Position numbers and translations under genes: made by a program
Source: Muribaculum sp.
GTDB lineage: Bacteria > Bacteroidota > Bacteroidia > Bacteroidales > Muribaculaceae
Direction of reading: 5' to 3'
DNA length: 55,424 bases
NCBI GenBank assembly: GCA_023666965.1
Contig: JAMPAZ010000008.1
Span: 1-55,424, forward strand
In this document: positions 20,997 to 49,359 of the stretch, one piece after another
Numbering within the stretch: position 1 is the stretch's first letter
How the letters are laid out: every line of letters starts with the position of its first letter
The notes under the pieces: generated by a model
The model's input: the letters and a program-made list of their open reading frames with translations, nothing else
Told to the model about the DNA's origin: nothing
The model's database searches: none

Positions 20997-22529
20997 CTAC
21001 ATCATCGGGCTGTAAACCTTAATGTTGTCGAGGAACCAACGTCGTGTGCTTGAATGCGGCCACTGGTCATCTGTGTTACGGATAGTAATCTTCGTATCCT
21101 TATTGACAGTTGCACCGGTGAGTACAATATCCGCTTCTACCCACTTCAATGGATCATCAGGAGTTATACCATGAGGAGGAACATCGAACATCATCTCATT
21201 ATCTCCATTCTTAACGACTACCACAAGTGTCGTGGGATCCTTCGTACCTGAACCTTGTACCATCGGACACCACTGGAATGAAACGTGAACAGTAGTACCA
21301 TCCCCAATTCCTTCGATTGACGGCAAGGTCAAACCACACTGATAAGCAGTCAGACCGAACTTCAAGTAATTGGTCTGCAAGTAAGTCTGCTTACCAGGTT
21401 CGCGTGCGCTCTTGCTTGCATCGTGTACAGCAGGAATCTCAAATCCCTTTGCAATAAGTGCATCGTAAGCCGTAACACCATCAATCTTCGGAGTGGTCAA
21501 TTGAAGTGCATTATCGTCAGCATTCTTCTCAACGGTTTGTCCTGCAGGAGCACCATTACCAATTGCAGACCACTGAGCAAGCCATTCAAAGTCTTCAGTG
21601 AAGTAAATATTCTGAGCTTCTCCAAGATCCTCCACTTCAGCAGAAATGACTTTCATAATCGGAGCGGCAACACCAGCGAAGTAACCATAGACACGAACAA
21701 AGTGACCGTTAAGCGAACTGTAGTCAACAGATTCAGGCAGATTATCCAATGTTACAGTTAACGACGAACCGGTCACTGCTACGCTACCTAAATTATAAAT
21801 ACCCTCTACAGAGATGTATTCACGGGTCGTAGGATTATACTTGTCAATAGTCTCAGTGATGTTGACAGGTTCCGGATACGTCACTTCGTTACCCTTAGAG
21901 TTAACAGTAATTTCATCGGCAACTACATATGCAAGCGACTGGCTATCAGTAAGCTTTTGGCAAAGCAGAGTCACATTGTCACCCTTATCCACCGCTTCCG
22001 AGCTTACGACGAGCATGTTGCTTTTATAGTCGGCATTGGAAATGACGAAACCGGTAGCAGTATTTGCAACTACTATTGCGTTAGGTATGGACATGTAGGT
22101 TTCATCTGTGGCACCATAAAGCTGCTCGACAGTGTAGTCCTTGCAATCACGGTATTTGTCACCTTCTTGAGCTATTGTCACAAATGCACGACTTGCAAGC
22201 GTACTGCCATGAAAAACAAGTTCCGCTTTGCGGGGATTGTCGGGCGTACCCTCACGGAGGTTATCAGATACCGATACAGTGACTTCCGTTGTACCGGCAG
22301 TACCGGTCGCAGGAGAAATAGTCACCCATTCAGGAACGTCGGCCACCCAGTTGGCATCGGAATAGACCGTAATCAACTGCGGTGTGGCAGAAGTCTCCTG
22401 AAAATTCAATAAAGAGGCACTCGCAAGGACAGCTTTAGACATTGAATCCTTGTCATCGTCCTTACAGCCCGACATCATGCATGAAGACATAAGCACGAGC
22501 GCGGCCATCATATAATGTTTGATTTTCAT
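20997..22529 (-). CDS. BACON-domain surface lipoprotein of the SusCD operon
   Basis: A 510-residue lipoprotein. The signal peptide ends in MMSGC (Cys22), followed by KDDDKDS, fitting surface export. Residues 36-125 form a BACON domain (LNFQETSATPQLITVYSDANW ends with AFVTIAQEG). Residues 130-290 resemble an OB-like beta domain (DYTVEQLYGA, NGHFVRVYGYF), and the C-terminal 200 residues look like a lectin/CBM-like beta sandwich ending in WFLDNIKVYSP. It is last in the operon, 30 bp after SusD, in the position where surface glycan-binding proteins (SusE/F-like) usually sit. The ligand is unknown; by context it may bind the phospho-polymer. Confidence 0.82.
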   Translation of the reverse strand: MKIKHYMMAALVLMSSCMMSGCKDDDKDSMSKAVLASASLLNFQETSATPQLITVYSDANWVADVPEWVTISPATGTAGTTEVTVSVSDNLREGTPDNPRKAELVFHGSTLASRAFVTIAQEGDKYRDCKDYTVEQLYGATDETYMSIPNAIVVANTATGFVISNADYKSNMLVVSSEAVDKGDNVTLLCQKLTDSQSLAYVVADEITVNSKGNEVTYPEPVNITETIDKYNPTTREYISVEGIYNLGSVAVTGSSLTVTLDNLPESVDYSSLNGHFVRVYGYFAGVAAPIMKVISAEVEDLGEAQNIYFTEDFEWLAQWSAIGNGAPAGQTVEKNADDNALQLTTPKIDGVTAYDALIAKGFEIPAVHDASKSAREPGKQTYLQTNYLKFGLTAYQCGLTLPSIEGIGDGTTVHVSFQWCPMVQGSGTKDPTTLVVVVKNGDNEMMFDVPPHGITPDDPLKWVEADIVLTGATVNKDTKITIRNTDDQWPHSSTRRWFLDNIKVYSPMM

Positions 22530-22559
22530 ATTGTTTTCAGATTGCTTAAATTAAAGTTA

Positions 22560-24335
22560 TTAATTCCAACCGGGATTCTGAGCGAAGTCGGGATTTTTCT
22601 CCTTATAGAGCGATATTTCGTCGGTAGGTATCGGATAGAGATAATCTCTGTCCTCATTAAATACATGACCTATATTATAATGATAGTCAGTGTAGCCCTT
22701 ATCGCCGCCTGAAAGGAATACATCGGAACCGATTTGATACACAGGAACACCGTCAGCGGCAGTCGGCTTAGACTGGCCGGCAGCATACAACACTATGTCG
22801 GCTTCTCCGTCACCGTCGAAGTCATATTCACCCGGGCCGGGGAAATACATGCCTGTAAGAGACTGCTCGGTGCACTTACCGGCTTTCCAACGCATCAGGT
22901 CGTTCCAGCGGAATCCTTCCTGAGCAAGTTCAACGGCACGTTCGCGGCGAATCTCAAGGATGACACCCTTGTTGGCACCTTCGACATTGCTGTAACCGGT
23001 TTCGGGGTCAGACAGGTATCTGTCAGGATTAGCATTTGCATAGCTCATAATAAGATGTGCCATACCCACGCGATCTCGGAGAAGGTTTACGGACTTGTCC
23101 AAATCTTCCTGAGTAAGAGTGCCAAGCTCAGCTTTAGCCTCGGCATAGTTCAGCAATACTTCAGCGTAGCGGTAAACCGGCATATCGCAAGTCGAGTTGT
23201 CAGAGCGGGTGATACCATCCTGGACAAACTTAATCGGGTTGTATCCAGTAACAGACTCAGACAAATTCGGCTTAATGGCACTGCCGTTAAGAGTAAAACC
23301 TGGATAACGAATAGACTGAAGCAGACGAGGATCGCGATCTTTAATTTCCTCAGCATAAGTCATTTCCTGCCATCCGGGTTTATCGGTAAATGCAGTACCA
23401 TCCTTCATTAAATACATATTGACAAACTTACGGGTGTAGCCGGGCATACCACGAGAGAGTACGCATGAAAATCCGTAAGCATCATGGAATGTCTGAGTTT
23501 GTGATCCGAATTTAATGGCCAAGATATATTCATCTGAATTGGCATTTTCAGAGCGGAACATTTCCAAATATGTGGTATTGGGATTTCCGTTTGAATAAAT
23601 CTTATACTTGTTGCCGGCCATCAGTTGGCTTGCGGCATCGACGGCCTGCTCAAGGTAATACTTATAATCATGCCCTTCAAGAGTCAAGCCGTGATACTTA
23701 CGGTAGGTACCCTCAAACAGACAGAACTGGGCCTTTAGAGCCATGGCAGCCCACTTTGTGGCACGATAAGGCACGTCGGTCTGAGTCTTTTCATCAGGAA
23801 GATTAGCAATGGCATAATCCACATCAGCGAGCATGTTAGTCATAACAACCTCGCGGGAATCACGAGACTTATACAAATCGGGGTCAGCCGAACCAAGCTC
23901 TTTGTCATACCAAGGTACATCGCCGAAGCGCTTAACCTTCTCAAAATAGAAAAATGCGCGGAAAAATCTCGACAAAGCGGTATACTTTACAACAGCTGCC
24001 TCGTCATTGCAACGGTCGACTCGAGCCAACAGCGTATTTATACGGCGGAGATCTGTCCAAGTCCATCCGCCACCGGAGGCCGGCACTGAACGGAATGTAC
24101 CACCACGCATTTCATTCGAAAGATTTTGGCATACCACCAAGTCACTCTGATCGTCATACGGCTCCTTATTAAGCATATTGTTGTAGTAAGGATTTGTGAA
24201 CAGCTTCAAGTCACTTTCGGTATTGAAATAGTCAGATTCACTGACACGGTCTTTCGGATTCAAGTCAAGCTGATCATCGCAAGACGCAAATCCCAACGAC
24301 AAAAGAACCGCAAATGGCAATATATATTTTTTCAT
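22560..24335 (-). CDS. susD: SusD/RagB-family nutrient-binding lipoprotein
   Basis: A 591-residue SusD-like lid protein of an outer-membrane SusCD importer. The lipobox is LGFASC followed by DDQLDLNPKDRVSESDYFN, the normal opening of mature SusD. TPR-like helices and the C-terminal RRERAVELAQEGFRWNDLMRWKAG are diagnostic. An earlier in-frame ATG at 24344 would add three residues. It lies 15 bp after SusC. No carbohydrate specificity can be read from sequence; the neighbouring phosphodiesterases suggest a phosphate-containing ligand. Confidence 0.95.
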   Translation of the reverse strand: MKKYILPFAVLLSLGFASCDDQLDLNPKDRVSESDYFNTESDLKLFTNPYYNNMLNKEPYDDQSDLVVCQNLSNEMRGGTFRSVPASGGGWTWTDLRRINTLLARVDRCNDEAAVVKYTALSRFFRAFFYFEKVKRFGDVPWYDKELGSADPDLYKSRDSREVVMTNMLADVDYAIANLPDEKTQTDVPYRATKWAAMALKAQFCLFEGTYRKYHGLTLEGHDYKYYLEQAVDAASQLMAGNKYKIYSNGNPNTTYLEMFRSENANSDEYILAIKFGSQTQTFHDAYGFSCVLSRGMPGYTRKFVNMYLMKDGTAFTDKPGWQEMTYAEEIKDRDPRLLQSIRYPGFTLNGSAIKPNLSESVTGYNPIKFVQDGITRSDNSTCDMPVYRYAEVLLNYAEAKAELGTLTQEDLDKSVNLLRDRVGMAHLIMSYANANPDRYLSDPETGYSNVEGANKGVILEIRRERAVELAQEGFRWNDLMRWKAGKCTEQSLTGMYFPGPGEYDFDGDGEADIVLYAAGQSKPTAADGVPVYQIGSDVFLSGGDKGYTDYHYNIGHVFNEDRDYLYPIPTDEISLYKEKNPDFAQNPGWN

Positions 24336-24350
24336 ATTAATCATTAGTTA

Positions 24351-27300
24351 TTAGAATGTTAAGTCTATACCGAACATATAAGTCTTCTGCCAAGGATAGA
24401 ACATACGGTTCATTGAACCACTACGCGTGATAGCTCCTTCAGGATCGATATACTTGTTATGCTTCTTTATAGGCGACCAATAGCAGAGGTTTTCTCCGGA
24501 GAAATACACACGAATTTGGTCAATTCCAGCCTTCTTGGTTAGCTTGGCAGGAACAGTGTAGCCTACGGTCAAATTCTTAAAGCGGAGATAACGTATATTT
24601 TCGAGGAATCGGTCGTTAACATCGCGAAGATAACCACCTGTGGCGATATTAGAACGCGGACGTGGCATATATGCATCGGCATTGTCAGCCGCCCAAACAT
24701 TATTCAAGAAGTTGCTCGGCAAATAAGAGTTCATCGGGTAGCCGTAAGGACCCCAATATACAAACGATTCATTTTCCGGATACCAGTAGTGGTTACCGGT
24801 TCCCTGGAAGAACACAGAAACGTCAAACCCAAAATAGCGCAGGCTACCTGTGATGCCATACTGCAAGCTCGGGAGAGAGTTGCCAAGAATCTTGCGGTCG
24901 CCCGGATCGTCAACGGTATTTTCACCAATGCTGATTTCGCCATCACCGTCGACATCGACAAACTTCAAGTCGCCGGCGCGCCAACCACCGGTCAAGTTAC
25001 CGGTAAGACGGCTTAAGAATGACAAATTCTTAGTATATTCTTGAGCTTCCTCATCGGTGGCATAAAGACCGTCGGTGACATAACCCCAAATTTCGCCGAT
25101 TCGCATACCTACATAGTAGTCTTTGGCAAATGTCTTTGTTGGGTTGTCGTATTTAGTGATTTCACTGCGGTAGTCGCTGATGTTGAAACCGATGCTGTAA
25201 TCGAGAGGATGACCGAACAGCTGGACATTGTCACGCCAATTGATGGCCAATTCATAACCCTTAGTACGAAGGTCGGCCGTGTTCATGTCAGGTACATCAG
25301 CACCGTAAACGGCAGGAAGAGCGATACCTGCGGTAAGCATATCCTTGGTATCGCGGATATAAACGTCACCGGTAAAGTTGAGTCGGCCGTTAAGCATCGA
25401 ATAGTCGATACCGAGGTTGTACTGATTAGCCTTCTCCCAAGTAAGGTCGGATGCGATAGGAGCACCAAGTGAAGAATACTTGCCAACCGATCCGTCGCCG
25501 AATGTGAATGAGCCAAAGTCCTTAACTGTAATCAAACGAAGGAATGTGTAATAAGACGATACGTTTTGGTTACCAAGGCTACCGTAAGAGAAGCGAATCT
25601 TAAGATTGTCGACAACGTCACGGGCGGGAGCGAAGAATGACTCTTCTGAAATACGCCAACCCACAGAAGCCGAGGGGAAGAAGCCCCAACGATTACCGCG
25701 TCCGAAGCGGGAAGAACCATCGTAACGGCCACTGGCTTCGAATAGATAACGTCCTTTATAGTCATAGTTGATACGTCCGAAAATACCGGAAAGCATATAC
25801 TCATTCTGACCTCCACTATAGTTACCGTCAGAAGCGGCCGTGGTACCAAGGTTGAGGTCGTCGAGTGAAGATGATGAAAGATTACCGGCCGCTACACCGA
25901 TGTTCTTAATCTTCAATGACTCATTGTTGTAACCGGCAGTTACGGTCAAGTTGTGCGCACCGGCAAAAGTGTCGGTATAAGTAGCGTATACGTTATACGA
26001 CATATAGTTACGGGTGTTGACAGCTTCATCAAGGCGGTCTTCACCGGCTGCGGTCGTGTATGAACCAAGGTCTCCATCAGGATAAACTCTAAAGAACATG
26101 TTTTGAGAACGGCTCGTGTTGCGCTTCTGGAAGAAACGATAAGTAAAGTCGGCTGTGATACTCAACTGCTTAAACGGAGTGATGACCAAGCGGCTCGTGT
26201 TAGAAAAATCAGTAGTGCGATCAACGTTGCGGTGAGTATTATCTCCTACAAGAATGTGTCGTCCATTAGCCACGCTATAGCTTGAAGAAGAGAAGTATGG
26301 AGTGTCTCTCAGCCATGAACCGTCGGGATTCTTCATCGGGAAAATCGGAAGAGCGTGAGCCGCACTATATGCAAGGGTATTCTCCACACTTCCGTCTCCA
26401 AGATACTTATATTCAGAAGAGAAGAAAGAGGTATTGTTGGAGAAAGTAGCGTACTTATTGATGCGGAAGTCTATTTTCGAGCGAAGGTTATATTTGCGGA
26501 ATATGTCGGGATTCTCCTTCAGAATACCCTTCTGCCAGTCAAGGCCTCCGGAAACGTAGTACTTGACATCCTTGTTACCGCCACTGATTGAAACGTTGTG
26601 CTGAGTGGTGGGGTGCTTGTCGTTGTACATCTGATGCCACCAGTCGTTGTTGCCGTAGTAGACCCATTGGCGACGGCCGTTGCGTGTATCCTCAACCACC
26701 CACGGACGATCGGGATTTTCAGTCTTGTCATGCACACGGGCAAGAAGCTGCTGCATGTCATAGTCTGTATAGTTGATGTATTTGGTCCCACGAGTCTCCA
26801 TTTGGAAGAGGTTCATGGTGTAAACTGACCAATAACCGGTAGTCTCATAGTCGGTAGAAGTGGTGGGTTCTTCCCAACCTACACGGCCGCTATAGCGAAC
26901 GGTGGCCTTGCCATCCTTTTCGGCACCGGATTTGGTAGTTACAAGAATCACACCGAATGCGGCGCGTGCACCATAAACAGCGGCGGCGGAAGCATCCTTA
27001 ATAACAGAGATTGATTCAACGTCGTTAGGATTGACATTGGCAAGCTCGCCTTCAGAACCGTCAATCAACACCAACGGGTTGGTTGCATTGATAGATGTCG
27101 TACCACGGACGTTGATAGCTGCGGACTGGCCGGGAGCACCTGAAGAAGTAGTCACATTAAGACCGGCCACGGAACCTTGGAGCATGTTGGTCACAGAGTG
27201 AGAAACACGATTTTCAAGATCTTTTGCACCTACACTTGCCACGGCACCGGTCAAATTGACCTTCTTCTGCGTACCGTAACCGATCACGACTGTCTCATCG

Positions 27301-27614
27301 AGCATCACGGCATCTTCATGCATGACCACGCTGACTTCGTTTTGACCGGGAGCAACTTTGATTCTTTGAGCTTTGAATCCCACGTATGTGAAACTCAATT
27401 CCACTTCGCCGGAAGGAACCGAAAGCGTGAACTTACCGTCAATGTCGGTCATGCCGCCGTTCTGAGTGCCGACCTGCATCACGGTAACACCAGCCAAAGG
27501 CTCATCCATCGTGTCGACAACGGTTCCCGACACAGTTCTGTTCTGAGCGGCAAGCGGCACGAAGCACGTTATCGCCAGCAACAGACTTAGAATTAAGGAC
27601 TTAGTTACTTTCAT
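24351..27614 (-). CDS. susC: SusC/RagA-family TonB-linked outer-membrane transporter
   Basis: A 1087-residue TonB-dependent transporter. After the signal peptide (ending about residue 23) comes a CarboxypepD-like domain (VSGTVVDTMDEPLAGVTVMQ to about residue 95). The TonB-box region is DETVVIGYGTQKKVNLTGAV, and a plug domain has the SusC signature NPLVLIDG and SIEVIKDASAAAVYGARAAFGVI-like wording. The rest is a 22-strand barrel ending in an aromatic residue (GIDLTF). Such proteins import ligands held by the partner SusD, here encoded 15 bp downstream. It lies 50 bp after the phosphoesterase gene. Confidence 0.96.
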   Translation of the reverse strand: MKVTKSLILSLLLAITCFVPLAAQNRTVSGTVVDTMDEPLAGVTVMQVGTQNGGMTDIDGKFTLSVPSGEVELSFTYVGFKAQRIKVAPGQNEVSVVMHEDAVMLDETVVIGYGTQKKVNLTGAVASVGAKDLENRVSHSVTNMLQGSVAGLNVTTSSGAPGQSAAINVRGTTSINATNPLVLIDGSEGELANVNPNDVESISVIKDASAAAVYGARAAFGVILVTTKSGAEKDGKATVRYSGRVGWEEPTTSTDYETTGYWSVYTMNLFQMETRGTKYINYTDYDMQQLLARVHDKTENPDRPWVVEDTRNGRRQWVYYGNNDWWHQMYNDKHPTTQHNVSISGGNKDVKYYVSGGLDWQKGILKENPDIFRKYNLRSKIDFRINKYATFSNNTSFFSSEYKYLGDGSVENTLAYSAAHALPIFPMKNPDGSWLRDTPYFSSSSYSVANGRHILVGDNTHRNVDRTTDFSNTSRLVITPFKQLSITADFTYRFFQKRNTSRSQNMFFRVYPDGDLGSYTTAAGEDRLDEAVNTRNYMSYNVYATYTDTFAGAHNLTVTAGYNNESLKIKNIGVAAGNLSSSSLDDLNLGTTAASDGNYSGGQNEYMLSGIFGRINYDYKGRYLFEASGRYDGSSRFGRGNRWGFFPSASVGWRISEESFFAPARDVVDNLKIRFSYGSLGNQNVSSYYTFLRLITVKDFGSFTFGDGSVGKYSSLGAPIASDLTWEKANQYNLGIDYSMLNGRLNFTGDVYIRDTKDMLTAGIALPAVYGADVPDMNTADLRTKGYELAINWRDNVQLFGHPLDYSIGFNISDYRSEITKYDNPTKTFAKDYYVGMRIGEIWGYVTDGLYATDEEAQEYTKNLSFLSRLTGNLTGGWRAGDLKFVDVDGDGEISIGENTVDDPGDRKILGNSLPSLQYGITGSLRYFGFDVSVFFQGTGNHYWYPENESFVYWGPYGYPMNSYLPSNFLNNVWAADNADAYMPRPRSNIATGGYLRDVNDRFLENIRYLRFKNLTVGYTVPAKLTKKAGIDQIRVYFSGENLCYWSPIKKHNKYIDPEGAITRSGSMNRMFYPWQKTYMFGIDLTF

Positions 27615-27664
27615 AAATTTGCATCTGGTTTTTAAATAAATTATTGGTTAACTCTAAATAATTA

Positions 27665-29626
27665 CTATTTGTAGGCTTCAATCGAGAAGGCTTTCGGACG
27701 CTGCATCTGCTCAATCCAAGTGTGTCCGAATTCATCTTTGACGGTGATGGTCAAATCTGTATCGGCATCCGGAGCCTTAACTTTGAAGAAGTGGGTAAAC
27801 TCTTCGGTGATGAAGCTCGGCTTGCTCGAAAGGTTCGACTTATTGAAGCGTGGAACTGAGAGGGCCGCGATATGGAGCGGGTCGTAAGCCCAAACGGCTG
27901 TCGGGGTCAACGACTGTCCACCCTCAGTGGTGACCGTAATGGTCCAATTAGGATTGTAGTTCCATACATTAATCAGCACCTCGTTGTTGCTGTTGACCGG
28001 ATATGCCTTGGTGTAGGGTTCGAAACCGTCGGCAACCTTTGCCGGCATGTCGGGAACATCGGCCGCGGTGAAGCTAACCTTGTTCAAGTCGTAGGAACGG
28101 AACTGGTAGTCCTCCGACTTTCCGGTGGGCTTAAACACCCACTTCATGTCGGTGCCGTTGATGTCCCAAACGACGTAACCGCCGGGAGCACCGTCAGTGC
28201 CGATGTGTATGCCAGGAGTCAGATAGCCCGACCACCACCACGAAGCGCAAATGGCACCCGAATTGTGCTCGAAAATGTCGCGTCCGCTAAGGATGCTTTC
28301 TCCCGGGGCAATATTATAGACCTGATGGGTGTGGCCGGTGACGATATTCACCTTGTAGCCGTCAATAAGCGATAGGAACTGGTTGGTGTTTGCCTCGTCA
28401 TGGTCAACCTTGAACCCACCCGACTTAACAGGCTTATAAACCTGGGCGTGCATGGTGATAATCAAAGGAGTAGACTTCGGCACGTAGGCAAGATCCTTGG
28501 CAAGCCACGAGAGCTGATCGGCAGAAATGCCCTTCTTGTAGTTGCGCGAGGTGGATCCGTCGTAAGAGCTGCAGTCGATGTCGTCGAGCACCACATAGTG
28601 GACTTTACCTATATTAAATGAATAGTAGGTGGGGGCCAACACAGTGCGGTAACGGTTTTCTGCAGTGAAGTCTGACGTAGCCTTAAAGTCGTTGTCGTGA
28701 TTACCCATCGTGTGGAAAATCTGGAGATTTTTCACTTGGGTGTTAACGGTCTTAAGATAATCGGCTATCTCATACTTATTGTCGTACCAATAAAGATCCC
28801 ATGTCATGTCGCCTAGAGTGATGGCATACATTTTTTCGCCGTAATGGCTCTGGGTATAGTTGTTAAGGTCGGTAGTAAATTCCAAGAACTGGTTAGCGTC
28901 ACCGGTACGGTTGGCAAGATGCATGTCGCCGAGGAAAAAGACTTTATACGTGTCCTGACCGCTGACTTTGTTAAGCTTAAAGTCGGCACGTTCCTGCGAC
29001 CTCTCATCTGAAGTCAACAGCCTATACAACACAGGGAGGACACCGTCGGACTCAGCTTCAAAGCCCGATGGAATCGACATGAACACATATCCGTACTTTT
29101 TGGCCGAATTGAGGCGATAGACACCTTCGCTGTCGGTAGTGGTCACTTCGATGCCGTCAGAAACCACCACTCCGGCAACGGGTTCATCGCCGGCAGTAAT
29201 AAGGCCGTAGACGGTAGAGTCGCCTCCGTCTATCTGCTTGGTAATTATATTTATAGAGGTCTGTCCGACAAGCTTCTTACGCTGGTCGCGCTTAAGATAC
29301 ACTTTATATGAGCCTTCGACGACTTCTTCAACAAAACGCACTGTAAACTGAGTAGCCGAAGCATTTACTATCGGGCAAAGGTAAGATACGCCCGAAGCTG
29401 ATTCCACCACCATGAAATCAGACATTTTGGGCGCAACACCGTTCGTAACGGTGAACGTAAACTCACCGCCTTTAGGGACATCTATCTTAGTAGGAAGAGT
29501 GAACTGAATGTCGAAGTCATCGACATTCGGTTCGTCCTCTGAGGACGACGATCCGCATCCCGCCAACGTAAAAGGCAGGATTGCGGCCATCAACATCCAA
29601 ATTAGATAATTGGATATATTTCTCAT
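27665..29626 (-). CDS. surface calcineurin-like phosphoesterase lipoprotein
   Basis: A 653-residue lipoprotein (LAGC, Cys24, followed by SSSSEDEPN). Residues 36-128 are Ig-like. Residues 137-200 fit the MetallophosN domain, residues 225-460 form the calcineurin-like catalytic core, and the remainder is the MetallophosC beta domain. All metal ligands are visible: D234/H236 in GDMHLAN, D273 in GDMTWD, GNHD at 308-311, H393 in TMHAQ, and GHTH at 431-434. Such enzymes hydrolyse phosphate mono- or diesters. Placed between glpQ and SusC it is a good candidate for the surface enzyme that cuts or trims the polymeric or lipid-derived phosphodiester (inference). Confidence 0.9.
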   Translation of the reverse strand: MRNISNYLIWMLMAAILPFTLAGCGSSSSEDEPNVDDFDIQFTLPTKIDVPKGGEFTFTVTNGVAPKMSDFMVVESASGVSYLCPIVNASATQFTVRFVEEVVEGSYKVYLKRDQRKKLVGQTSINIITKQIDGGDSTVYGLITAGDEPVAGVVVSDGIEVTTTDSEGVYRLNSAKKYGYVFMSIPSGFEAESDGVLPVLYRLLTSDERSQERADFKLNKVSGQDTYKVFFLGDMHLANRTGDANQFLEFTTDLNNYTQSHYGEKMYAITLGDMTWDLYWYDNKYEIADYLKTVNTQVKNLQIFHTMGNHDNDFKATSDFTAENRYRTVLAPTYYSFNIGKVHYVVLDDIDCSSYDGSTSRNYKKGISADQLSWLAKDLAYVPKSTPLIITMHAQVYKPVKSGGFKVDHDEANTNQFLSLIDGYKVNIVTGHTHQVYNIAPGESILSGRDIFEHNSGAICASWWWSGYLTPGIHIGTDGAPGGYVVWDINGTDMKWVFKPTGKSEDYQFRSYDLNKVSFTAADVPDMPAKVADGFEPYTKAYPVNSNNEVLINVWNYNPNWTITVTTEGGQSLTPTAVWAYDPLHIAALSVPRFNKSNLSSKPSFITEEFTHFFKVKAPDADTDLTITVKDEFGHTWIEQMQRPKAFSIEAYK

Positions 29627-29669
29627 AATAATTAAGGTTAGTAAGACTGCTATATAGAATTATCAGCGA

Positions 29670-30428
29670 TTATTTTGAAATAAGTTTTTGAGCCTCTTCG
29701 GGGTGGTTCGTAGTGATATAATCGACACCTTGCTCGAGGAAGTACTTAATGTCCTCCTCTTTATCGACAGTCCATACATTTACTTCCAGACCGAGGTCGT
29801 GGGCCTGCTGAATCCACTCGGGATGTTTGCGGAGCGCCTTCATCGAATAGTCGACACCGGCAAGTCCGAGCTTTGCAATCTTCTTCGGAGGAAGATCACC
29901 GTCAAGATAGTAAATCTTCACTCCCACGGGACACAGCTTCTTAAACTGGATGCAGGCATTGATGGAGAAGCATATTATGTCGGTGCGGTCAAGAAGACCG
30001 TATTTTCTTAAGTCAGCCACAATCATTTCGGCCGCTTTATCTTCACGAGTCAAGTCGGTAAGCGACTTAAGTTCAAGAATCAAGCGGGTGTCGGGCAATT
30101 GAGCTGCTTTCGCAAGATATTCGTCGAGTGTCGGCACAACTTCACCGTTATCAAGTCGAATCTTTCGGATTTCATCAAATGTAGAGGTCTCAAAGTCAAC
30201 GCCTTTAAAAACCTTGTCGTGATTAACAACAATGCGGTCGTCTGAAGTAAGCCAAACGTCAAACTCAGATCCGAACACCTTGATAGAATCGGCTTTCACA
30301 AGCGATCTGATTGAGTTCTGGGCAGATCCGTCGGTCTTCCAGTAACCACGGTGGGCAATCACTTTTGCTTGAGAGAACCCAAGCACGGCCACGCAAAGGC
30401 ATAGCGCTGAAAACAATACTCTTTTCAT
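29670..30428 (-). CDS. glpQ: periplasmic glycerophosphodiester phosphodiesterase
   Basis: A 252-residue GDPD-family enzyme that cuts glycerophosphodiesters (e.g. glycerophosphocholine, or terminal units of poly-glycerolphosphate) to glycerol-3-phosphate and an alcohol. A signal peptide ends at about FSQ/A (residues 20-21). The catalytic AHRGYW (H26, R27), metal-binding GSEFDVWL (E55, D57) and VVNHD (H70) are intact, as is the C-terminal VNVWTVDKEEDI. An upstream extension to 30512 is in frame but lacks a signal peptide, so I choose 30428. It is the first gene of the operon running to 20997. Confidence 0.94.
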   Translation of the reverse strand: MKRVLFSALCLCVAVLGFSQAKVIAHRGYWKTDGSAQNSIRSLVKADSIKVFGSEFDVWLTSDDRIVVNHDKVFKGVDFETSTFDEIRKIRLDNGEVVPTLDEYLAKAAQLPDTRLILELKSLTDLTREDKAAEMIVADLRKYGLLDRTDIICFSINACIQFKKLCPVGVKIYYLDGDLPPKKIAKLGLAGVDYSMKALRKHPEWIQQAHDLGLEVNVWTVDKEEDIKYFLEQGVDYITTNHPEEAQKLISK

Positions 30429-30562
30429 TGTATATTTAAGTTTATATTCTATTCTCTGGTTTAAATTATCATATATATCCCATGCAAGAAATATCCAACA
30501 CTTTAAACACAAGTTCAGTTAACTATGAAAGGGTTAGCTTACTAAAATTCATATCAACCGAA

Positions 30563-30594
30563 CAAAGGTATGCAAGCGTTTAATTTTATACAAA
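30563..30594 (-). promoter_or_regulatory. Bacteroidota promoter TTTG-N20-TACCTTTG for glpQ-susCD operon
   Basis: On the minus strand TTTG (30591-30594), 20 bp, then TACCTTTG (30563-30570). A start site near 30558 would leave a leader of about 130 nt before glpQ. The gap of 302 bp between glpQ and the transporter gene contains this promoter and the terminators listed separately. Confidence 0.75.
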
Positions 30595-30627
30595 TATATT
30601 TGGTTAAAATTTGACTCTTAAGGTACT

Positions 30628-30657
30628 TAAAAAACCGGCACCTAAGATTTGGCCGGT
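30628..30657 (-). terminator. intrinsic terminator after the GlpT-type gene
   Basis: On the minus strand ACCGGC, a 12-nt loop, GCCGGT and then a run of six T. This is a clear Rho-independent terminator, 74 bp past the transporter stop, and separates the glpABC-transporter unit from glpQ. Confidence 0.8.
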
Positions 30658-30668
30658 AATCTGCACCT

Positions 30669-30692
30669 CCCATGTCGGATCTCCGACATGGG
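30669..30692. repeat. perfect 11-bp inverted repeat in front of the terminator
   Basis: CCCATGTCGGA, 2 nt, TCCGACATGGG. It is perfectly palindromic and could be an extra terminator stem, an RNA-stability hairpin protecting the glp mRNA end, or a repressor operator. It lies between the transporter stop and the T-tailed terminator. Confidence 0.6.
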
Positions 30693-30730
30693 GGCAGAGA
30701 CTTTTTAACTAATACATTCGATTACATTTC

Positions 30731-32290
30731 TTATACGTCGGTATCGGCGGGATTGCCGGAATTATCGGCGATATTCTCTTCAGCTTCAAGGACATTATGC
30801 GCTTCACCTGCATAGAACTGCTGAGCACGTGCATAACCGTCGCGAGGAGCCATCCACATAGTCAGGAATGTTATGGCACCGAGTACGCCAACACCGATAA
30901 TAAGGTAGAAGACGACATTCCATCCATAGTGGTCGGCGATGATGCCGACTCCGATAGCCGACAGGAACGAACCAACGTAGCCAAAGATACCGGCAAGGCC
31001 GTTGGCCGTAGCGGCCGCCTCCTTAGTAGCCTGGTTAGCCGAGCCGATTCCTATCAATGCCTGAGGTCCGTAGATGAAGAATCCGGCAAAAGCGAGCACA
31101 ACGAGCGAGAAGAACGAGGGCATTCCGGGGAAGAAGATGAATATTCCCATGAAGATGGAAGCTAATGCCATACAGAGCAGACACATCCGGTGTGATTTAC
31201 CTTTAAATATATGATCCGTGGCCCATCCGGCAAAGATAGTGCCGACAATAGCGAAAATTTCAAATACGGCCACCGACCAAGCGGCATCTTCAATCGACAT
31301 GCCTCGGGACTCGGTAAGGAACTTCGGTCCCCAGTCGAGAATGCCCATGCGCATCACATATACAAAAACATTTGCAATGCAAAGAGTCCAAATCCAACGG
31401 TTGGTCCAAACCATAGCCTTAAGGAAGCGTGAACGGCTACCCTTGCTCGGAGCTGTAGCAGTACTTTTTCCGGTGTTGGTGTCAGGGAGTTCCGGAAGTC
31501 CGACCGAACGAGGGTCGTCGCGCAGTCCGAAGTAAAGCCACAACGAGCCACACACGGCTATTGCCGCAGGAATCCAGAAGCACCAACGCCATGCATCCCA
31601 GTGTTGAGCGTACTGCAGAATCTGCTTCATCCCGTCGGCACTGTTCTTATCCACGCCGAGATTCTTAGCGACCGTGTCGATAATCTCAGGATTATTGCTC
31701 AAGTCAGTACCTAAAGAACCCATTATGTAGCCGCAGGCCACCACAGCGGCGGCGGCTCCTATGGAATGTGAAGTGTTCCAGATAGACATCTTTGTCGCCA
31801 ACTCCGACGGATGAATCCAGCTCGGCAACAACCGGGCGCACGGAGGATAGCCGACACCCTGGAACGCCTGATTCAACACAATCGTGACGGCCATAACCAA
31901 CACGAGCATATTGATTAGGTCCGGGCCCTGATCAACACCCGTAATCCATGAAGATATATTCACGCCGAAACCGAACGCGAAATTTGACAAGGCACAGAGT
32001 AAAAGTCCGATAGCCATGACGGTACGTGCGCTGAAACGGTCGACAATGAATCCATTGGCAAAACGCGAAGCTCCATAAATCAACGACCCGATACCGATCA
32101 CGATTCCGAAGCTGGTGTTGGAGATTCCATACTGAGCTGTCAAGCCCGGCATGGCAAGAGAGAAGTTCTTCCTTACAAAATAATAGATAGCGTAACCTAT
32201 CATCGAGACCAAAATCGTACGGAGCTGCCAAGTCTTAAAGCGCTTGGTGACCGCCGGATCCCAATTAGCGTATATGTCTACCTTTGCCAT
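30731..32290 (-). CDS. glpT: GlpT-type glycerol-3-phosphate/phosphate antiporter (OPA family MFS)
   Basis: A 519-residue transporter with twelve membrane helices. YAIYYFVRKNFSLAMPGL at about residues 33-50 is typical of the organophosphate:phosphate antiporter family, as are the loop GVGYPPCARLLPSWIHPSELATKMSIWNTSH around 150-180 and the GPQALIGI segment near 410. Members exchange glycerol-3-phosphate or hexose phosphates for phosphate across the inner membrane. The position between glpC and glpQ points to glycerol-3-phosphate, although UhpT-like use is possible. It follows glpC by 41 bp and is followed by a terminator. Confidence 0.92.
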   Translation of the reverse strand: MAKVDIYANWDPAVTKRFKTWQLRTILVSMIGYAIYYFVRKNFSLAMPGLTAQYGISNTSFGIVIGIGSLIYGASRFANGFIVDRFSARTVMAIGLLLCALSNFAFGFGVNISSWITGVDQGPDLINMLVLVMAVTIVLNQAFQGVGYPPCARLLPSWIHPSELATKMSIWNTSHSIGAAAAVVACGYIMGSLGTDLSNNPEIIDTVAKNLGVDKNSADGMKQILQYAQHWDAWRWCFWIPAAIAVCGSLWLYFGLRDDPRSVGLPELPDTNTGKSTATAPSKGSRSRFLKAMVWTNRWIWTLCIANVFVYVMRMGILDWGPKFLTESRGMSIEDAAWSVAVFEIFAIVGTIFAGWATDHIFKGKSHRMCLLCMALASIFMGIFIFFPGMPSFFSLVVLAFAGFFIYGPQALIGIGSANQATKEAAATANGLAGIFGYVGSFLSAIGVGIIADHYGWNVVFYLIIGVGVLGAITFLTMWMAPRDGYARAQQFYAGEAHNVLEAEENIADNSGNPADTDV

Positions 32291-32331
32291 TACAAGATTT
32301 AAATTATGTTTTTAACTGGTTTATTTTAAAG

Positions 32332-33582
32332 TTAATGAAGATTATTAGCCTTCTTCGTGGCTTCCAAATCAAGAGCCTGGGCAATTATTGAAATCGGGTT
32401 GTCGACATGCACTCCGGTAGACATTTCAATCTGCCATTTGCACGTTTCGCAGTCGGTGGCCACGACATCGACCCTCTCGGCAAGTATCTGCTTAAACAGT
32501 GCCGAACCTATCTCCTGAGAATATTTATAATTTTCTTTCTTAAAGCCGTACGTTCCGGCAATGCCGCAACATACGGAATCGAGCGGCACAAAGTCAAGTC
32601 CGGGAATCATCTTCAACAATGACGTCGAATATACAGCCCAACCGAGTTTCTCCATGTGGCACGGAGTGTGGTATGCCACACGCTTTTTAAAGTCCTTGCG
32701 GAACACCAATTTCACTTTACCCTTATCTACGAGGTTGAACAAGAATCTTGTCGCCAACATTATTTCGTCGCGCACATCGGCATTGTCGATATGCAAAAGG
32801 TGGGGATATTCGTCGCGCATCGTAAACGTACAAGTCGAACTTGTGCCAAGAACTACCCTGCCCCGCTCCACCGACTTGCGGATAGAAGCGAGATTGATGT
32901 TAGCGTCGCGGGTAGCCTCCTTGACAAGTCGATTAGCTATCTTTGCGACACCGCAACAACGTTCTTTTTCGAGTAGATCCACGCCGTAACCGACAGCGTT
33001 CATGACTGTCACGAAATCTTTGCCGAGCTGCGGGTAGTTGTACTGGACATAACATCCATGAAAATATGACACATGGTTTGCGAACTTGCCTTGAACCGGA
33101 GCCGCCTCCTTTTTAAACCACGACGTAAATTTCTGAGATGAATATGCCGGGAACTGGCGGTGTTCGTCGATTTTCAACACAGAATCCATAACCATCTTGA
33201 CCGGCTTCAATTTGAGAGTCGTATTCACGATCGGGGCAAACGCCGACGACATTGTACCTACGAAATCGGTGTTCGCAAGTATGGTGTCGCGCAGACTTGG
33301 CTTGGACTTTGTATATTTGATACGGGCCGATTGTATTATGTCGCCGATTTTAACGTTCGACGGACAAGCCACTTCGCATCGCTTGCAGTTAAGGCAATAC
33401 TTTAGGGCCTCATCATAAAAATACGGTTTTTTCAAACGATAGCGCTCTCCGTCCGGACCGGCTTGCTTGGGACCGGGATAATTCGGATTGAACGGCGTGA
33501 CAGGACAATAGACCGTACAGATGGTACACTTAATACAGTCCTCAAAATTGTTAGCACTTATGTTTTGCTCTTGATAATTCAT
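32332..33582 (-). CDS. glpC: anaerobic glycerol-3-phosphate dehydrogenase subunit C
   Basis: A 416-residue iron-sulfur subunit that passes electrons from GlpAB to the quinone pool. Two [4Fe-4S] motifs are near the N-terminus (CIKCTICTVYCP from residue 16 and CLNCKRCEVACPS around residue 63). Two CCG domains follow, with CCGVAKIAN and CCGIAGTYG. No membrane helix is seen, so membrane contact would be peripheral, as in E. coli. Its start overlaps the glpB stop (ATGA). Confidence 0.95.
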   Translation of the reverse strand: MNYQEQNISANNFEDCIKCTICTVYCPVTPFNPNYPGPKQAGPDGERYRLKKPYFYDEALKYCLNCKRCEVACPSNVKIGDIIQSARIKYTKSKPSLRDTILANTDFVGTMSSAFAPIVNTTLKLKPVKMVMDSVLKIDEHRQFPAYSSQKFTSWFKKEAAPVQGKFANHVSYFHGCYVQYNYPQLGKDFVTVMNAVGYGVDLLEKERCCGVAKIANRLVKEATRDANINLASIRKSVERGRVVLGTSSTCTFTMRDEYPHLLHIDNADVRDEIMLATRFLFNLVDKGKVKLVFRKDFKKRVAYHTPCHMEKLGWAVYSTSLLKMIPGLDFVPLDSVCCGIAGTYGFKKENYKYSQEIGSALFKQILAERVDVVATDCETCKWQIEMSTGVHVDNPISIIAQALDLEATKKANNLH

Positions 33583-34841
33583 TTTTTGCCTCCTTTCCCG
33601 TTCAAAATGTCATCGGCCACTTTTATGGAAGTCAAAAGCGACACTCCGCCTCCCGACTCCTCTTTCATTGAATTGCAACCGGCCAATACGGCGCCCACGG
33701 CCCTCAAATTGCTGATTTTATTCCCGTCCTTATATACGTGGAAATCGCCGTCATTGACCACCCCGTACTGCATATAATTCTGTGTCTTGTAAATGTCCAT
33801 ATCGCACCAATCCGGCCGACTCGCGGAAGCCACCACGTCAAGGCCGAAAATAGGCTCGTAAATCGATGTCGGATTCGCCTCTATTCCGTGGCTGAAGAAA
33901 CTGCCGGTAGCCAATATGAAGTTGTCGGCTTCGAGAGGCATATCCCCCAGATTCTGCGTGCTCACAGCCACAAGTCTGTCGTTTTCAAAACGTCCGGCAG
34001 TCACTTTGTCGCCAATCAGATATGTTCCGCCAAGCTTCAGGAAATATTTACGCAAGCTCATCTGCGCACGCATCCCACCAACAGACATCGGCATAGTAGA
34101 CACCAAATATACCGGTTTAACGACTTTACTTCTGAGCAACCGGATGGGTTCCTCGTCGTAAAGGCCGAGAATTGCAGGCAGAAGCACCGTATCTGCGCTA
34201 CTTTCCTTTAAGTAAGTGTTAATCTGCGAAGCCATCTGAAGGATTACTTCGTCTTTAAGCACTCTGGCTATATTCGTAGCGCGCATCTCGGTGGCACTCT
34301 TTCTAAGCGTCTCCAAACCCGGTAGGATAAAAGTCCTGGAGACACACTCCAGACCGGCTTTGCTCAGACCGAGTTCAAGGAATTGGGGATAAAAATCGAT
34401 AAATCCGGCGAGATTAACTATCAGTACTTTTCCCCAAGGAATCGACTTTGGATCGTCGACCGTAGCATATCCGTCCATCGACAGCCATGCCGGCTTAAAC
34501 ATACCGATTGGAGTCAATCTATAGTGGTTGCGCTCGGCCGACCCATGCAATGTAACGCCGGCCTCAGCAAACAAAGGAGCCACCTCGCTTACATATTTGC
34601 GGATATTCTCCATACCCAACTTGCCGTAAGGATGTTCCGCAGAAAGATGTTCAATAGACTCTAACGGACGAACTACGTCACGGCCATGCTCATGGCCAAG
34701 CAACGACATCGAGCCCGAATTAAAGTGGAGTGCACTCTGGCCGACAGACACTATGGCAACCTTTTGTCCGGCCTTTCTCAGCCGAATTCCCGCCACAAGT
34801 CCGCTCATGCCTCCACCGATTATAATAGTATCGTATTTCAT
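33579..34841 (-). CDS. glpB: anaerobic glycerol-3-phosphate dehydrogenase subunit B
   Basis: A 420-residue flavoprotein subunit with an N-terminal FAD/NAD-binding dinucleotide motif (DTIIIGGGMSGLVAGIRL, residues 4-21) and the C-terminal NLRAVGAVLAGCNSMKEESGGGVSLLTS. It works with GlpA and GlpC. It lies 12 bp after glpA and overlaps glpC by 4 bp, so the three are translated together. Confidence 0.95.
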   Translation of the reverse strand: MKYDTIIIGGGMSGLVAGIRLRKAGQKVAIVSVGQSALHFNSGSMSLLGHEHGRDVVRPLESIEHLSAEHPYGKLGMENIRKYVSEVAPLFAEAGVTLHGSAERNHYRLTPIGMFKPAWLSMDGYATVDDPKSIPWGKVLIVNLAGFIDFYPQFLELGLSKAGLECVSRTFILPGLETLRKSATEMRATNIARVLKDEVILQMASQINTYLKESSADTVLLPAILGLYDEEPIRLLRSKVVKPVYLVSTMPMSVGGMRAQMSLRKYFLKLGGTYLIGDKVTAGRFENDRLVAVSTQNLGDMPLEADNFILATGSFFSHGIEANPTSIYEPIFGLDVVASASRPDWCDMDIYKTQNYMQYGVVNDGDFHVYKDGNKISNLRAVGAVLAGCNSMKEESGGGVSLLTSIKVADDILNGKGGKK

Positions 34842-34853
34842 GATTTCTATCCT

Positions 34854-36509
34854 TTATTTAGCATCGATTAAATCCTCGGGGTTCGCCAGTTGATTTATTC
34901 CACAAACACCCTCATAAAGCCACGACATGAACTGTCCCTCGACAAGGGTCTCACCCCACGACACCGGATACATGCCTTTCCAACGCTCGTTGATAAACGA
35001 CGACAAGTCGCGAAGGGTGCGTTCGGCACATTTGTTATAATTAACCAAAATACCCGCGGCTCGGCACGCACAAAGCTCGCCCTGACAAGTTCCCATACCC
35101 ATTCGAGTACGTCGGCGTAGATTTATCAGATTGCCGACGTGCAAATGCTCGATAGCATACTTCATTTCGCCCACCGACACCTGTTCACACTCACAGACAA
35201 GAGCCTCATCGTCTTCGGTCTTATACTCAATCTGCTCACTAAGCGAACCATGACGTCCTTCGGCGGCTTTCTGTTCGGTGCTTAGTTCTATAATGTGCGA
35301 CTTTTTATGCTCGTCGGGGCCGTATGACTTATCCATTTCCGATCCGGGCAGAGGAGTCTCCGCCGTCTGACATTTAGCCGACCTCCCCAGCTTTTTACAA
35401 GCAAGGTCGGTGGCCCATTCAGCCATAAGGCGATAAGTCATAAGCTTTCCTCCGGTGATGGTTATGAACCCTTCCAATCCGTCGCGAGTAGCGTGGTCGA
35501 GACATACGATTCCTCGGCTGATAGTACGTCCTGACGGATCGTGGTCAGAAGCCACCAGCGGACGGACACCTGCGTATGCTCTTAAGATTCGTGTATATGC
35601 GAGCGACGGTGCAATCTTTATACCCTCGCGCAACAATATGTCGACCTCCTCGGGCGTAACCTCCATATTGTCAATTTGATCGTATGGGATACGGGTAGAG
35701 GTGGTACCAATCAAAGAAATGGTATCGCCCGGAACCAAGATGTCGGCATCGGCCGGCTTTCGGCAACGATTGATCACAACGTCGTTCACACGGTGCCCGA
35801 ATATCAACAATGCGCCTTTTGCGGGGAACATATTAACTTTTACTCCTGCCAATTCTGCTATGTGGTGTCCCCAGATACCGCCGGCATTAATCATCAAGTC
35901 GGCATATTCAACCGTCTCCTCCCCGCTACGGGTATCCCGCAGACGAACGCCGATTAGCCGGTTTTGTTCTCGTTCAAATGCGACAACTTCATGGTATGTC
36001 AGAACATCCGCGCCATCACGGCGAGCCGAAACGACGTTGGCAACAGTCAAGCGGAATGGATCGATAGCTCCGTCCGGGACTCTGACCGCGCCGATTATAT
36101 CCTTGTTGACAGCAGGCTCTATAATCAATGCCTCTTTCGGGTCTAAAACTTCCGCGCTGATTCCGGCCTTCAAACATGCATCAACGAATTTTTTCTGATA
36201 ATCAAGGTCGTCTTCGGGCAAAGTAACGAAGAGTCCACCGGTGTCTTCCACGCAGTGGCGGGCTATACGCCTTAAAATCATATTCTCCTTTATACACTCA
36301 GTGGCCGACTCCTGATCGGTGACGGCATATCTCGCACCACTGTGGAGCAGGCCATGATTTCGTCCTGTGGCACCGGCGGTAAAGTCGAATCGCTCCACAA
36401 GCAACGTTCTCAGACCACGCATAGCACAGTCGCGTGCAGTGCCGGCTCCCGTGGCACCACCTCCTATCACTATGACATCATAGTGCTTCTTGCCGAATTT
36501 ATTGTCCAT
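34854..36509 (-). CDS. glpA: anaerobic glycerol-3-phosphate dehydrogenase subunit A
   Basis: A 551-residue catalytic FAD subunit oxidising sn-glycerol-3-phosphate to dihydroxyacetone phosphate. VIVIGGGATGAGTARDCAMR (residues 13-32) binds FAD and GRNHGLLHSGARYAV follows as in GlpA. A BFD-like [2Fe-2S] domain lies near residues 430-490 (CECEQVS; GMGTCQGELCACR). The length is normal for GlpA rather than aerobic GlpD. It is the first gene of glpABC-transporter, and its promoter shares an 18-bp sequence with the HAD gene promoter. Confidence 0.96.
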   Translation of the reverse strand: MDNKFGKKHYDVIVIGGGATGAGTARDCAMRGLRTLLVERFDFTAGATGRNHGLLHSGARYAVTDQESATECIKENMILRRIARHCVEDTGGLFVTLPEDDLDYQKKFVDACLKAGISAEVLDPKEALIIEPAVNKDIIGAVRVPDGAIDPFRLTVANVVSARRDGADVLTYHEVVAFEREQNRLIGVRLRDTRSGEETVEYADLMINAGGIWGHHIAELAGVKVNMFPAKGALLIFGHRVNDVVINRCRKPADADILVPGDTISLIGTTSTRIPYDQIDNMEVTPEEVDILLREGIKIAPSLAYTRILRAYAGVRPLVASDHDPSGRTISRGIVCLDHATRDGLEGFITITGGKLMTYRLMAEWATDLACKKLGRSAKCQTAETPLPGSEMDKSYGPDEHKKSHIIELSTEQKAAEGRHGSLSEQIEYKTEDDEALVCECEQVSVGEMKYAIEHLHVGNLINLRRRTRMGMGTCQGELCACRAAGILVNYNKCAERTLRDLSSFINERWKGMYPVSWGETLVEGQFMSWLYEGVCGINQLANPEDLIDAK

Positions 36510-36860
36510 GGCTGGAATATGGTATGTAATTTATTCTGGGGTTAGTATATAACTCTAATAATAAAAAGATGGTCATCGATTAGTTCACGAGGCTCATTGC
36601 CACAAGAAACAAAAACGGATAATCAAGTTTCGCAACAAAAGTATGAATTTTTATATTCAAAACAAAACTTTTCTTGATTTTTTTGCTTAGGCAACCGATT
36701 TTTTCCGTTTCGCCCCCATAAAATCGTCTTATTAGGTTAAATTCATAAAATTTAGCACCATAAAACCAACCTTCCGCGGGCAAAAACATCTTTCATCACG
36801 TCAAGCACCGCTTTCGTTTCGCAAGCTCATAATTCGACTCAGTCCAACATTCGACCGAAG
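36510..36860 (-). other. glpA upstream region and leader without a gene
   Basis: A gap of 351 bp between glpA and the propeller gene. It holds the glpA promoter (36636-36666) and a leader of about 125 nt that is A/T-rich without a clear hairpin. The part from 36667 to 36860 is A/T-rich with no convincing ORF and no terminator after the propeller gene, so read-through into glp is possible. A second copy of the 9-mer GTTTCGCAA occurs at about 36815. Confidence 0.6.
36636..36666 (-). promoter_or_regulatory. glpA promoter TTTG-N19-TACTTTTG with shared downstream box
   Basis: On the minus strand TTTG (36663-36666), 19 bp, TACTTTTG (36636-36643), a consensus promoter. The 18-bp TACTTTTGTTGCGAAACT (36626-36643) recurs exactly at the HAD gene promoter, and the -33 boxes also share AAAGTTTTG. 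The start-site region TTGCGAAACT could be an operator. Confidence 0.8.
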
Positions 36861-38740: not shown

Positions 38741-38771
38741 CAAAAGTAGGGAATTTTCATTTAAAATCAAA
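38741..38771 (-). promoter_or_regulatory. promoter TTTG-N19-TACTTTTG of the HAD-propeller operon
   Basis: On the minus strand TTTG (38768-38771), 19 bp, TACTTTTG (38741-38748), followed by TTGCGAAACT. The 18-bp stretch 38731-38748 is identical to the one at glpA. It is divergent from the umuD promoter. Confidence 0.8.
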
Positions 38772-49274: not shown

Positions 49275-49296
49275 AAATAATGATTGGTTACCTTTG

Positions 49297-49304
49297 CAAA
49301 TATA
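49297..49304 (-). promoter_or_regulatory. -7 element (TATATTTG) for the GH43 gene
   Basis: Complement TATATTTG, 22 bp upstream of the GH43 ATG. Together with the plus-strand element at 49360 it makes this a divergent promoter region. Confidence 0.6.
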
Positions 49305-49359
49305 CACATTTTCCTTATAATCGATGATATTCGACTATGACTAATATCCAACTTTTCCT

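Follow-up and report, generated by a model that had tools for sequence, protein, structure and literature searches.

A SusCD locus next to glycerol-3-phosphate genes in Muribaculum is a probable glycerophosphate utilisation system

Introduction

SusCD transporters are usually taken to import glycans, and the Glp regulon of enterobacteria includes glpABC and glpTQ. Elements of both lie side by side in a stretch of DNA from Muribaculum sp. (55,424 nucleotides; contig JAMPAZ010000008.1 of GenBank assembly GCA_023666965.1), which we call the window. We propose, with a probability of roughly 0.7, that this locus is a glycerophosphate utilisation system made of two adjacent units.

The closest described systems are the PusCD systems of Flavobacterium (PUSI-IV), which established SusCD transporters for organic phosphorus. 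They respond to phosphate depletion, and lipid headgroups were proposed as the source for PUSI (PMC8115612). In the searchable part of that paper, no word starts with glycerol, glpQ, glpT, or teichoic, "glycerophospho" occurs in a cited title only, and gut anaerobes were not scrutinised. In Bacteroides thetaiotaomicron, a SusCD pair (BT4724-25) and a glycerophosphodiester phosphodiesterase (GDPD; BT4727) have near-adjacent locus tags, going by the annotations in an iron-response table (PMC10434189). In a literature search that covered few subscription journals, none of the matches listed dealt with SusCD-based use of glycerophosphate or teichoic acid, the nearest being PusCD and organic phosphorus.

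Gene content of the locus

The locus has nine genes, all on the minus strand between positions 20997 and 36509. (A preliminary description of this DNA had listed the same genes in the same order and strand, and the reading frames bear it out.) The first three are glpA, for subunit A of the anaerobic glycerol-3-phosphate (G3P) dehydrogenase (34854..36509), glpB (33579..34841), and glpC (32332..33582); their best scores against NCBIfam equivalog families are 874, 409, and 588 bits, all above the cut-offs. Next is a GlpT-like organophosphate antiporter (OPA; 30731..32290, from domain and NCBIfam scans). The earlier label "GlpT-type" fits it as an OPA-type transporter of the major facilitator superfamily, but its sequence does not prove that it is GlpT proper. 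Then come a GlpQ-type GDPD with a signal peptide (29670..30428), a lipoprotein with MetallophosN, calcineurin-like, and MetallophosC domains (the metallophosphoesterase or MPE; 27665..29626, from the domain scan), a SusC-like TonB-dependent transporter (24351..27614; TIGR04056, 913 bits), a SusD-like surface lipoprotein (22560..24344; PF07980 and PF14322), and a BACON-domain lipoprotein of 510 amino acids (20997..22529). The BACON domain is barely over its cut-off (25.4 vs. 25 bits) and spans 60 of the 510 residues. The SusC and SusD genes are adjacent, and the pair is co-located with phosphoesterases. As had been claimed, the domain scan found no glycoside hydrolase (GH), lyase, or sulfatase among these nine genes. 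The closest glycoside hydrolase among the window genes that were scanned (not every gene was) is a GH43 at 47199-49307. glpK lies elsewhere in the genome.

The GDPD is above the cut-off for PF03009, and the residues that count as catalytic in GDPDs (HRG, ExD, HD, a glutamate, and a lysine) are all present. HRG, ExD, NHD, E119, and K121 are invariant across all seven aligned sequences, including the window's. (We took the start to be the ATG at 30428; a longer frame with a TTG start also exists.) By eye, the protein carries an ordinary signal sequence. A sequence search of the PDB matched it to 3no3 (1e-67) and to the N-terminal part of 7ww4 (1e-43), which is labelled as a beta-1,3(4)-glucanase. 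We take 7ww4 to be a two-domain protein and do not read this match as a hint that the GDPD is a glucanase.

In the MPE, the set of metal-binding motifs used for calcineurin-like phosphoesterases (DxH, GDxxxD, GNHD, and GHTH) is intact, and both flanking domains are present. Its only match in the PDB search was a weak one, to a purple acid phosphatase (E = 0.0036). The MPE, SusD, and BACON proteins have lipoprotein-type signals by eye (LAGC, FASC, and MSGC), each followed by acidic residues. A lipobox followed by acidic residues is the rule for surface lipoproteins of Bacteroides.

Our best reading is that these genes would serve the uptake of substrates with glycerophosphate in them, as a source of carbon, energy, and phosphorus. 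On the cell surface, the SusD and BACON lipoproteins would bind a glycerophosphate-containing molecule, the MPE would cut phosphodiester bonds (or end phosphates), and SusC would import the pieces. In the periplasm, the GDPD would free G3P, which the GlpT-like antiporter would take up in exchange for phosphate. GlpABC would then oxidize G3P to dihydroxyacetone phosphate and pass the electrons to the quinone pool. The enzyme activities are predicted from protein families; the localisation, the substrate, and a joint induction of the genes in this organism are also predictions.

The pairing recurs with unrelated SusCD systems

The earlier claim that MPE-SusCD is functionally tied to G3P catabolism is supported by non-orthologous SusCD and MPE genes in three families, by a fusion of MPE and GDPD, and by a shared operator-like motif. 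We refer to MPE-SusC blocks that are orthologous to the window's as type A, and to genomes by our own handles (the window genome is G000).

In G281, from another genus of the Muribaculaceae, a type-A SusD-SusC-MPE block with a GH89, a 378-amino-acid protein, and a DeoR-type regulator is divergent from glpABCT-HAD-GH36. A second kind of locus, type B, is found in three further genera (G036, G407, and G425): HAD-glpTCBA is divergent from DeoR-BACON-BACON-SusC-SusD-MPE-GH31-GDPD. (In G425, the second BACON gene was called as two frames.) G342 has the type-B order as far as the GH31, where the fetched stretch stops. There are also variants with no SusCD: DeoR-MPE-GH31-GDPD in G356 and G422, and DeoR-MPE-GDPD in G468.

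G258, from another family, has an operon-like run of GlpD-GlpT-MPE-SusC-SusD-MPE-BACON with gaps of 14-97 bp. We read 20 stretches from this family, chosen from 98 GlpT/OPA places in 199 genomes with the neighbours unknown beforehand (14 near G258's score and 6 from the top of the score list). An MPE is present in 10 of the 20, and MPE and SusC are both present with GlpT in 6, with no MPE baseline for this family to set these counts against. The six are G535, G564, G543, G614, G565, and G500 (in a variant order); with G258, they represent four genera. In a third family, G042 has SusC-SusD-GlpT-MPE-GH31-MPE, with a type-B-like SusC (47-49% identical). In the genome search, the GlpT of G042 passes the curated cut-off, at 669 bits. 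Between type A, type B, and G258, the SusC proteins share just 21-29% identity, so the pairing involves three or more lineages of SusC.

In G564 (C24, L186), GlpD reads as two overlapping frames, which is a frameshift or an assembly error.

MPE genes lie near glp operons and GDPD genes

Of the 247 Muribaculaceae genomes searched, 66 encode an MPE (at 121 places) and 66 have a GlpT/OPA match (at 91 places). An MPE lies within 20 kb of 12 of these 91 places, while about 2.5 would be expected under uniform placement. The glpABCT-operon type accounts for 38 of the places, and 10 of these are that close to an MPE, vs. 1.24 expected (Poisson P = 8e-7; this value is only a guide, because the class limits were fixed post hoc, the genomes are related, a single genome size was used, and contig ends were ignored). 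For canonical GlpT, the count is 0 of 32 (0.25 expected), and for other OPA proteins, 2 of 21 (1.05 expected). In an order-wide sample of 247 genomes, MPE and GlpT/OPA are both found in 7 genomes, and they are at most 20 kb apart in 3 of them (G000, G042, and G258).

MPE and GDPD genes adjoin each other or are separated by a single gene at 5 of the 36 GDPD places in 61 genomes (the window, G007, G002:C88, G036:C22, and G036:C9), as well as in G407, G425, G356, G422, G468, and G453. In G543, a single frame of 744 amino acids (L188:434-2668) contains MetallophosN, MetallophosC, and GDPD, within a GlpD-GlpT-MPE-SusC-SusD run. This fusion is an argument for a common pathway of the two enzymes.

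In G407 (L134:4359-5261) and G002 (L055:10605-11465), the gene after MPE-GDPD is of the Esterase_PHB type. Its product might strip ester groups, such as D-alanine, from the substrate.

A putative DeoR regulon

A shared motif lies behind the promoters of type-A MPE genes in G002 and G036 and of type-B BACON genes in G036, G407, and G342: GTTGCG-N3-TGAAAC-N8-TTTCGTTT. We derived the pattern from these five sites and scanned 20 whole genomes, picked since most of them carry these loci, for it and for a variant with N7. With up to 2 mismatches, there are 13 sites (10 with N8 and 3 with N7), and 12 of them are at promoters of MPE, BACON-SusCD-MPE, or glpA. Considering just the 8 sites that were independent of the derivation, 7 are at such promoters. 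(The G356 site runs into the first codons of an MPE frame that was called mechanically and is over-long.) At 3 mismatches the signal fades: the N8 pattern has 26 hits vs. 7 for its reversal, and the N7 pattern has 6 vs. 9.

We also counted sites with up to 2 mismatches in the upstream regions of loci L034-L049 and L052-L146 (these overlap, so some genes are counted twice). Sites are present ahead of 7 of 84 MPE genes, 3 of 18 BACON genes, and 1 of 18 glpA genes, and ahead of 0 of 48 SusC genes, 0 of 43 GDPD genes, and 0 of 855 other genes. Since 77 of the 84 MPE genes have no site, the regulon would cover only some of the MPE loci. The only other gene with a site at 3 mismatches is the DeoR gene next to glpA in G002, and G017, too, has a site between its DeoR and glpA genes. 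The best model for the DeoR protein is AgaR, with a score just under the cut-off. This protein is the likely reader of the motif, and motifs at both the DeoR/glp and the MPE-SusCD promoters mark a putative shared regulon. In the window itself, the glpA promoter is followed by GTTGCGAAACTTGA, a weak match with 6 mismatches that is equalled or beaten ahead of 21 of the 855 other genes.

Some other sites deserve mention. The sole site with up to 2 mismatches in the 20 genomes that is not at an MPE, SusCD, or glpA promoter is ahead of a GH92 gene (G422:C10:134; L151:1-434). G013:C251 (L150) has a second DeoR/glpA pair, with a site at 3 mismatches between the genes. The window genome (L045, G000:C11:745000-764999) and G007 (L088, G007:C26) each have a second locus, a type-B-like BACON-BACON-SusC-SusD-MPE that is not linked to glp. 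It holds their second MPE, and its operator-like site is perfect. In the window genome, this site is of the N7 form (C11:762871), and a 749-amino-acid gene stands at the position of GH31 in the sister loci.

Type-A blocks are often away from glp

A SusCD of this type that is always accompanied by glpQ is not supported. We read the type-A block in nine genomes: the window genome, G007, G001, G010, G002, G036 (C1), G143 (which belongs to a different family), G281, and G425 (which has two copies). (We excluded G013, whose MPE has an internal stop and stands at a contig end with no SusC. Further MPEs of similar length, for example in G356:C27, G422:C53, G468:C196, and G481:C53 are outside the count and are possibly type A. 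A protein scan of the genome collection with the MPE found three close relatives only.) Within the fetched stretches, glp is nearby in just 3 of the 9 (the window, G007, and G281) and a GDPD adjoins the block in 2. In G001 and G010, a GH123-type gene is about 0.4 kb from the block, with an aldolase also upstream. (Pfam was run on the G001 neighbours, and their counterparts in G010 were judged from the start of the sequence.) In G002, the block is beside a divergent hybrid two-component regulator, then a GH95 about 4.5 kb away, and in G036 it is beside a divergent sulfatase. Homologous pairs that are consistently found with glycoside hydrolases and away from glpQ had been named as evidence against the idea. 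This is part of what we see: within the fetched stretches, 6 of the 9 blocks are off glp and glpQ, two of them near GH123 and one with GH95, yet the G002 and G036 blocks carry the operator motif. Judged by physical linkage alone, the earlier reading would look weak, but it is rescued by the recurrence of the MPE-SusCD/glp pairing in other genomes.

G010 and G001 retain the glpABCT-GDPD block, with no frame called for glpB in G001. G013 has the part that starts with glpT, located at a contig end. In these three genomes, the next genes after glpT-GDPD encode a radical-SAM protein, a sulfatase, and another kind of SusC (L052:11419-20000, L053:1-8743, and L054:2750-16000; family scans were for G001 only). 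This is a further SusC lineage beside glp.

Transcription units in the window

The Bacteroides-type promoter pattern TTTG-N18..22-TAnnTTTG has 8 matches in the window, vs. 1.04 expected. One is ahead of glpA (36636..36666, minus strand), and another, TTTG-N20-TACCTTTG, is ahead of the GDPD gene (30563..30594, minus strand). Between glpT and this promoter, we noticed two hairpins (30629..30692, minus strand), the second followed by a T run and terminator-like. (A terminator scan with a loop limit of 8 did not list this hairpin.) The hairpins are common to the window and G007, with stems kept through paired changes (by eye), and the GDPD promoter is the best-conserved block of this spacer between the two genomes. 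Given the hairpins and the conserved promoter, the locus is probably made of two units in tandem, glpABCT and GDPD-MPE-SusC-SusD-BACON. On the strength of the separate promoter and the terminator-like hairpin, we rejected a single operon for the whole stretch, and the one wired unit of the preliminary description is not supported: these elements intervene, and the GDPD promoter lacks the operator motif.

A third likely unit lies upstream. Its promoter match (38741-38771, minus strand) is ahead of a HAD-IIA phosphatase (37836..38711, minus strand; TIGR01460, 136 bits vs. a cut-off of 100), which is followed, as in G002, by an exported-looking protein of 322 amino acids (36861..37829, minus strand) that has no match in NCBIfam or Pfam. 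In sister genomes, the orthologue of the HAD phosphatase is the next gene after glpT (glpABCT-HAD).

Alternative explanations

Several observations weigh against a glycerophosphate utilisation system. The window antiporter fails the test for the GlpT equivalog TIGR00712 (275 bits vs. a cut-off of 633); in the genome search, this cut-off was reached in none of the 247 Muribaculaceae genomes. The GDPD is below the cut-off of the single NCBIfam equivalog that it touches (38 vs. 264 bits). The activity of the MPE on phosphodiesters is predicted from its family, and its AlphaFold model, built from three sequences, is poor (mean pLDDT of 48.6). The best operator match at the GDPD promoter has 9 mismatches, which is no match, and the DeoR gene of the window genome sits elsewhere (C11:930394). 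Also, the glp genes can serve ordinary glycerol metabolism. Finally, 6 of the 9 type-A blocks lie elsewhere, which raises the question of chance juxtaposition: an ordinary glycan locus, with the MPE removing phosphate decorations, might have landed by the glp operon in this lineage. The neighbours of the unlinked blocks (GH123, GH95 with a hybrid two-component regulator, or a sulfatase) would suit this, as would the block's own promoter and the terminator-like hairpin in the window. But it would leave unexplained the other arrangement of this SusCD type in G281, the two other SusC lineages, the linkage above uniform expectation, and the operator motif at the unlinked blocks in G002 and G036, and we consider it quite improbable. 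Scavenging of phosphate from any organic phosphodiester, as with PusCD, with the glp neighbours disposing of leftover G3P, also seems unlikely: the recurrent partners are a route to carbon and energy (GlpABC or GlpD) and a DeoR/AgaR-like regulator, and the sister loci have alpha-glycosidases.

If glycerophosphate utilisation is correct, then the target might be small diesters from the diet or the host, such as deacylated phospholipid head groups, instead of a polymer. The window locus has no glycosidase, and GDPD, GlpT, and GlpABC together are the textbook route for small glycerophosphodiesters. However, these molecules are small enough to use porins, and the GH31, GH36, and GH89 of the sister loci would be unneeded for head groups. 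Small diesters are possible, but we lean somewhat away from them, even though lipid headgroups were proposed for PUSI, going by the PusCD paper (PMC8115612). The GH31, GH36, and GH89 genes hint at glycosylated polyglycerolphosphate, or teichoic-acid-like, substrates. In many teichoic acids, glycerol phosphate bears alpha-linked sugars. More tentatively, we may be looking at a distinct class of Bacteroidales SusCD systems, under DeoR/AgaR-like control, that consume alpha-glycosylated polyglycerolphosphate (the teichoic acids of Gram-positive neighbours, for example) and were assembled several times with unrelated SusCD. GH31, GH36, and GH89 would strip the sugars, MPE and GDPD would depolymerise the backbone, and GlpT with GlpABC or GlpD would burn the G3P; this full scheme is somewhat doubtful. 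GlpQ from Bacillus subtilis is reported to cut unsubstituted wall teichoic acid and not its enantiomer, intact lipoteichoic acid (PMC7086022). Because of this selectivity, lipoteichoic acid is a less fitting substrate than wall teichoic acid or sn-3 glycerophosphodiesters.

If the recurrent and regulated coupling of SusCD, phosphoesterases, and G3P oxidation is real, then glycerophosphate compounds would be an added class of nutrients for gut bacteria. It might account for some of the SusCD loci that have no carbohydrate enzymes, and the use of Gram-positive wall polymers or phospholipid remains by gut Bacteroidales would become testable.

Comparison with known systems

Like canonical Sus-like loci for polysaccharide utilisation, the window locus has SusC, SusD, a surface lipoprotein, a surface hydrolase, and a Bacteroides-type promoter, but it has no carbohydrate-active enzyme, and its catabolic end is the oxidation of G3P. 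As in the Glp regulon of enterobacteria, a GDPD, an antiporter, and an anaerobic dehydrogenase are found together; the window adds a TonB-dependent SusCD and a surface phosphoesterase, as might be expected for larger or scarcer substrates. The PusCD study describes a SusCD pair with phosphodiesterases and phosphomonoesterases in place of carbohydrate-active enzymes, as in the window, but PusCD is a response to phosphate depletion, while a whole route for G3P and a DeoR-type regulator recur here. BT4724-25 and BT4727 of B. thetaiotaomicron similarly place SusCD near a GDPD, as annotated in the iron-response table. Three features are new: a coupling to G3P oxidation that recurs, an MPE fused to a GDPD, and a putative regulon under DeoR. 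These unrelated recurrences in Bacteroidales suggest dedicated feeding on glycerol-phosphate compounds.

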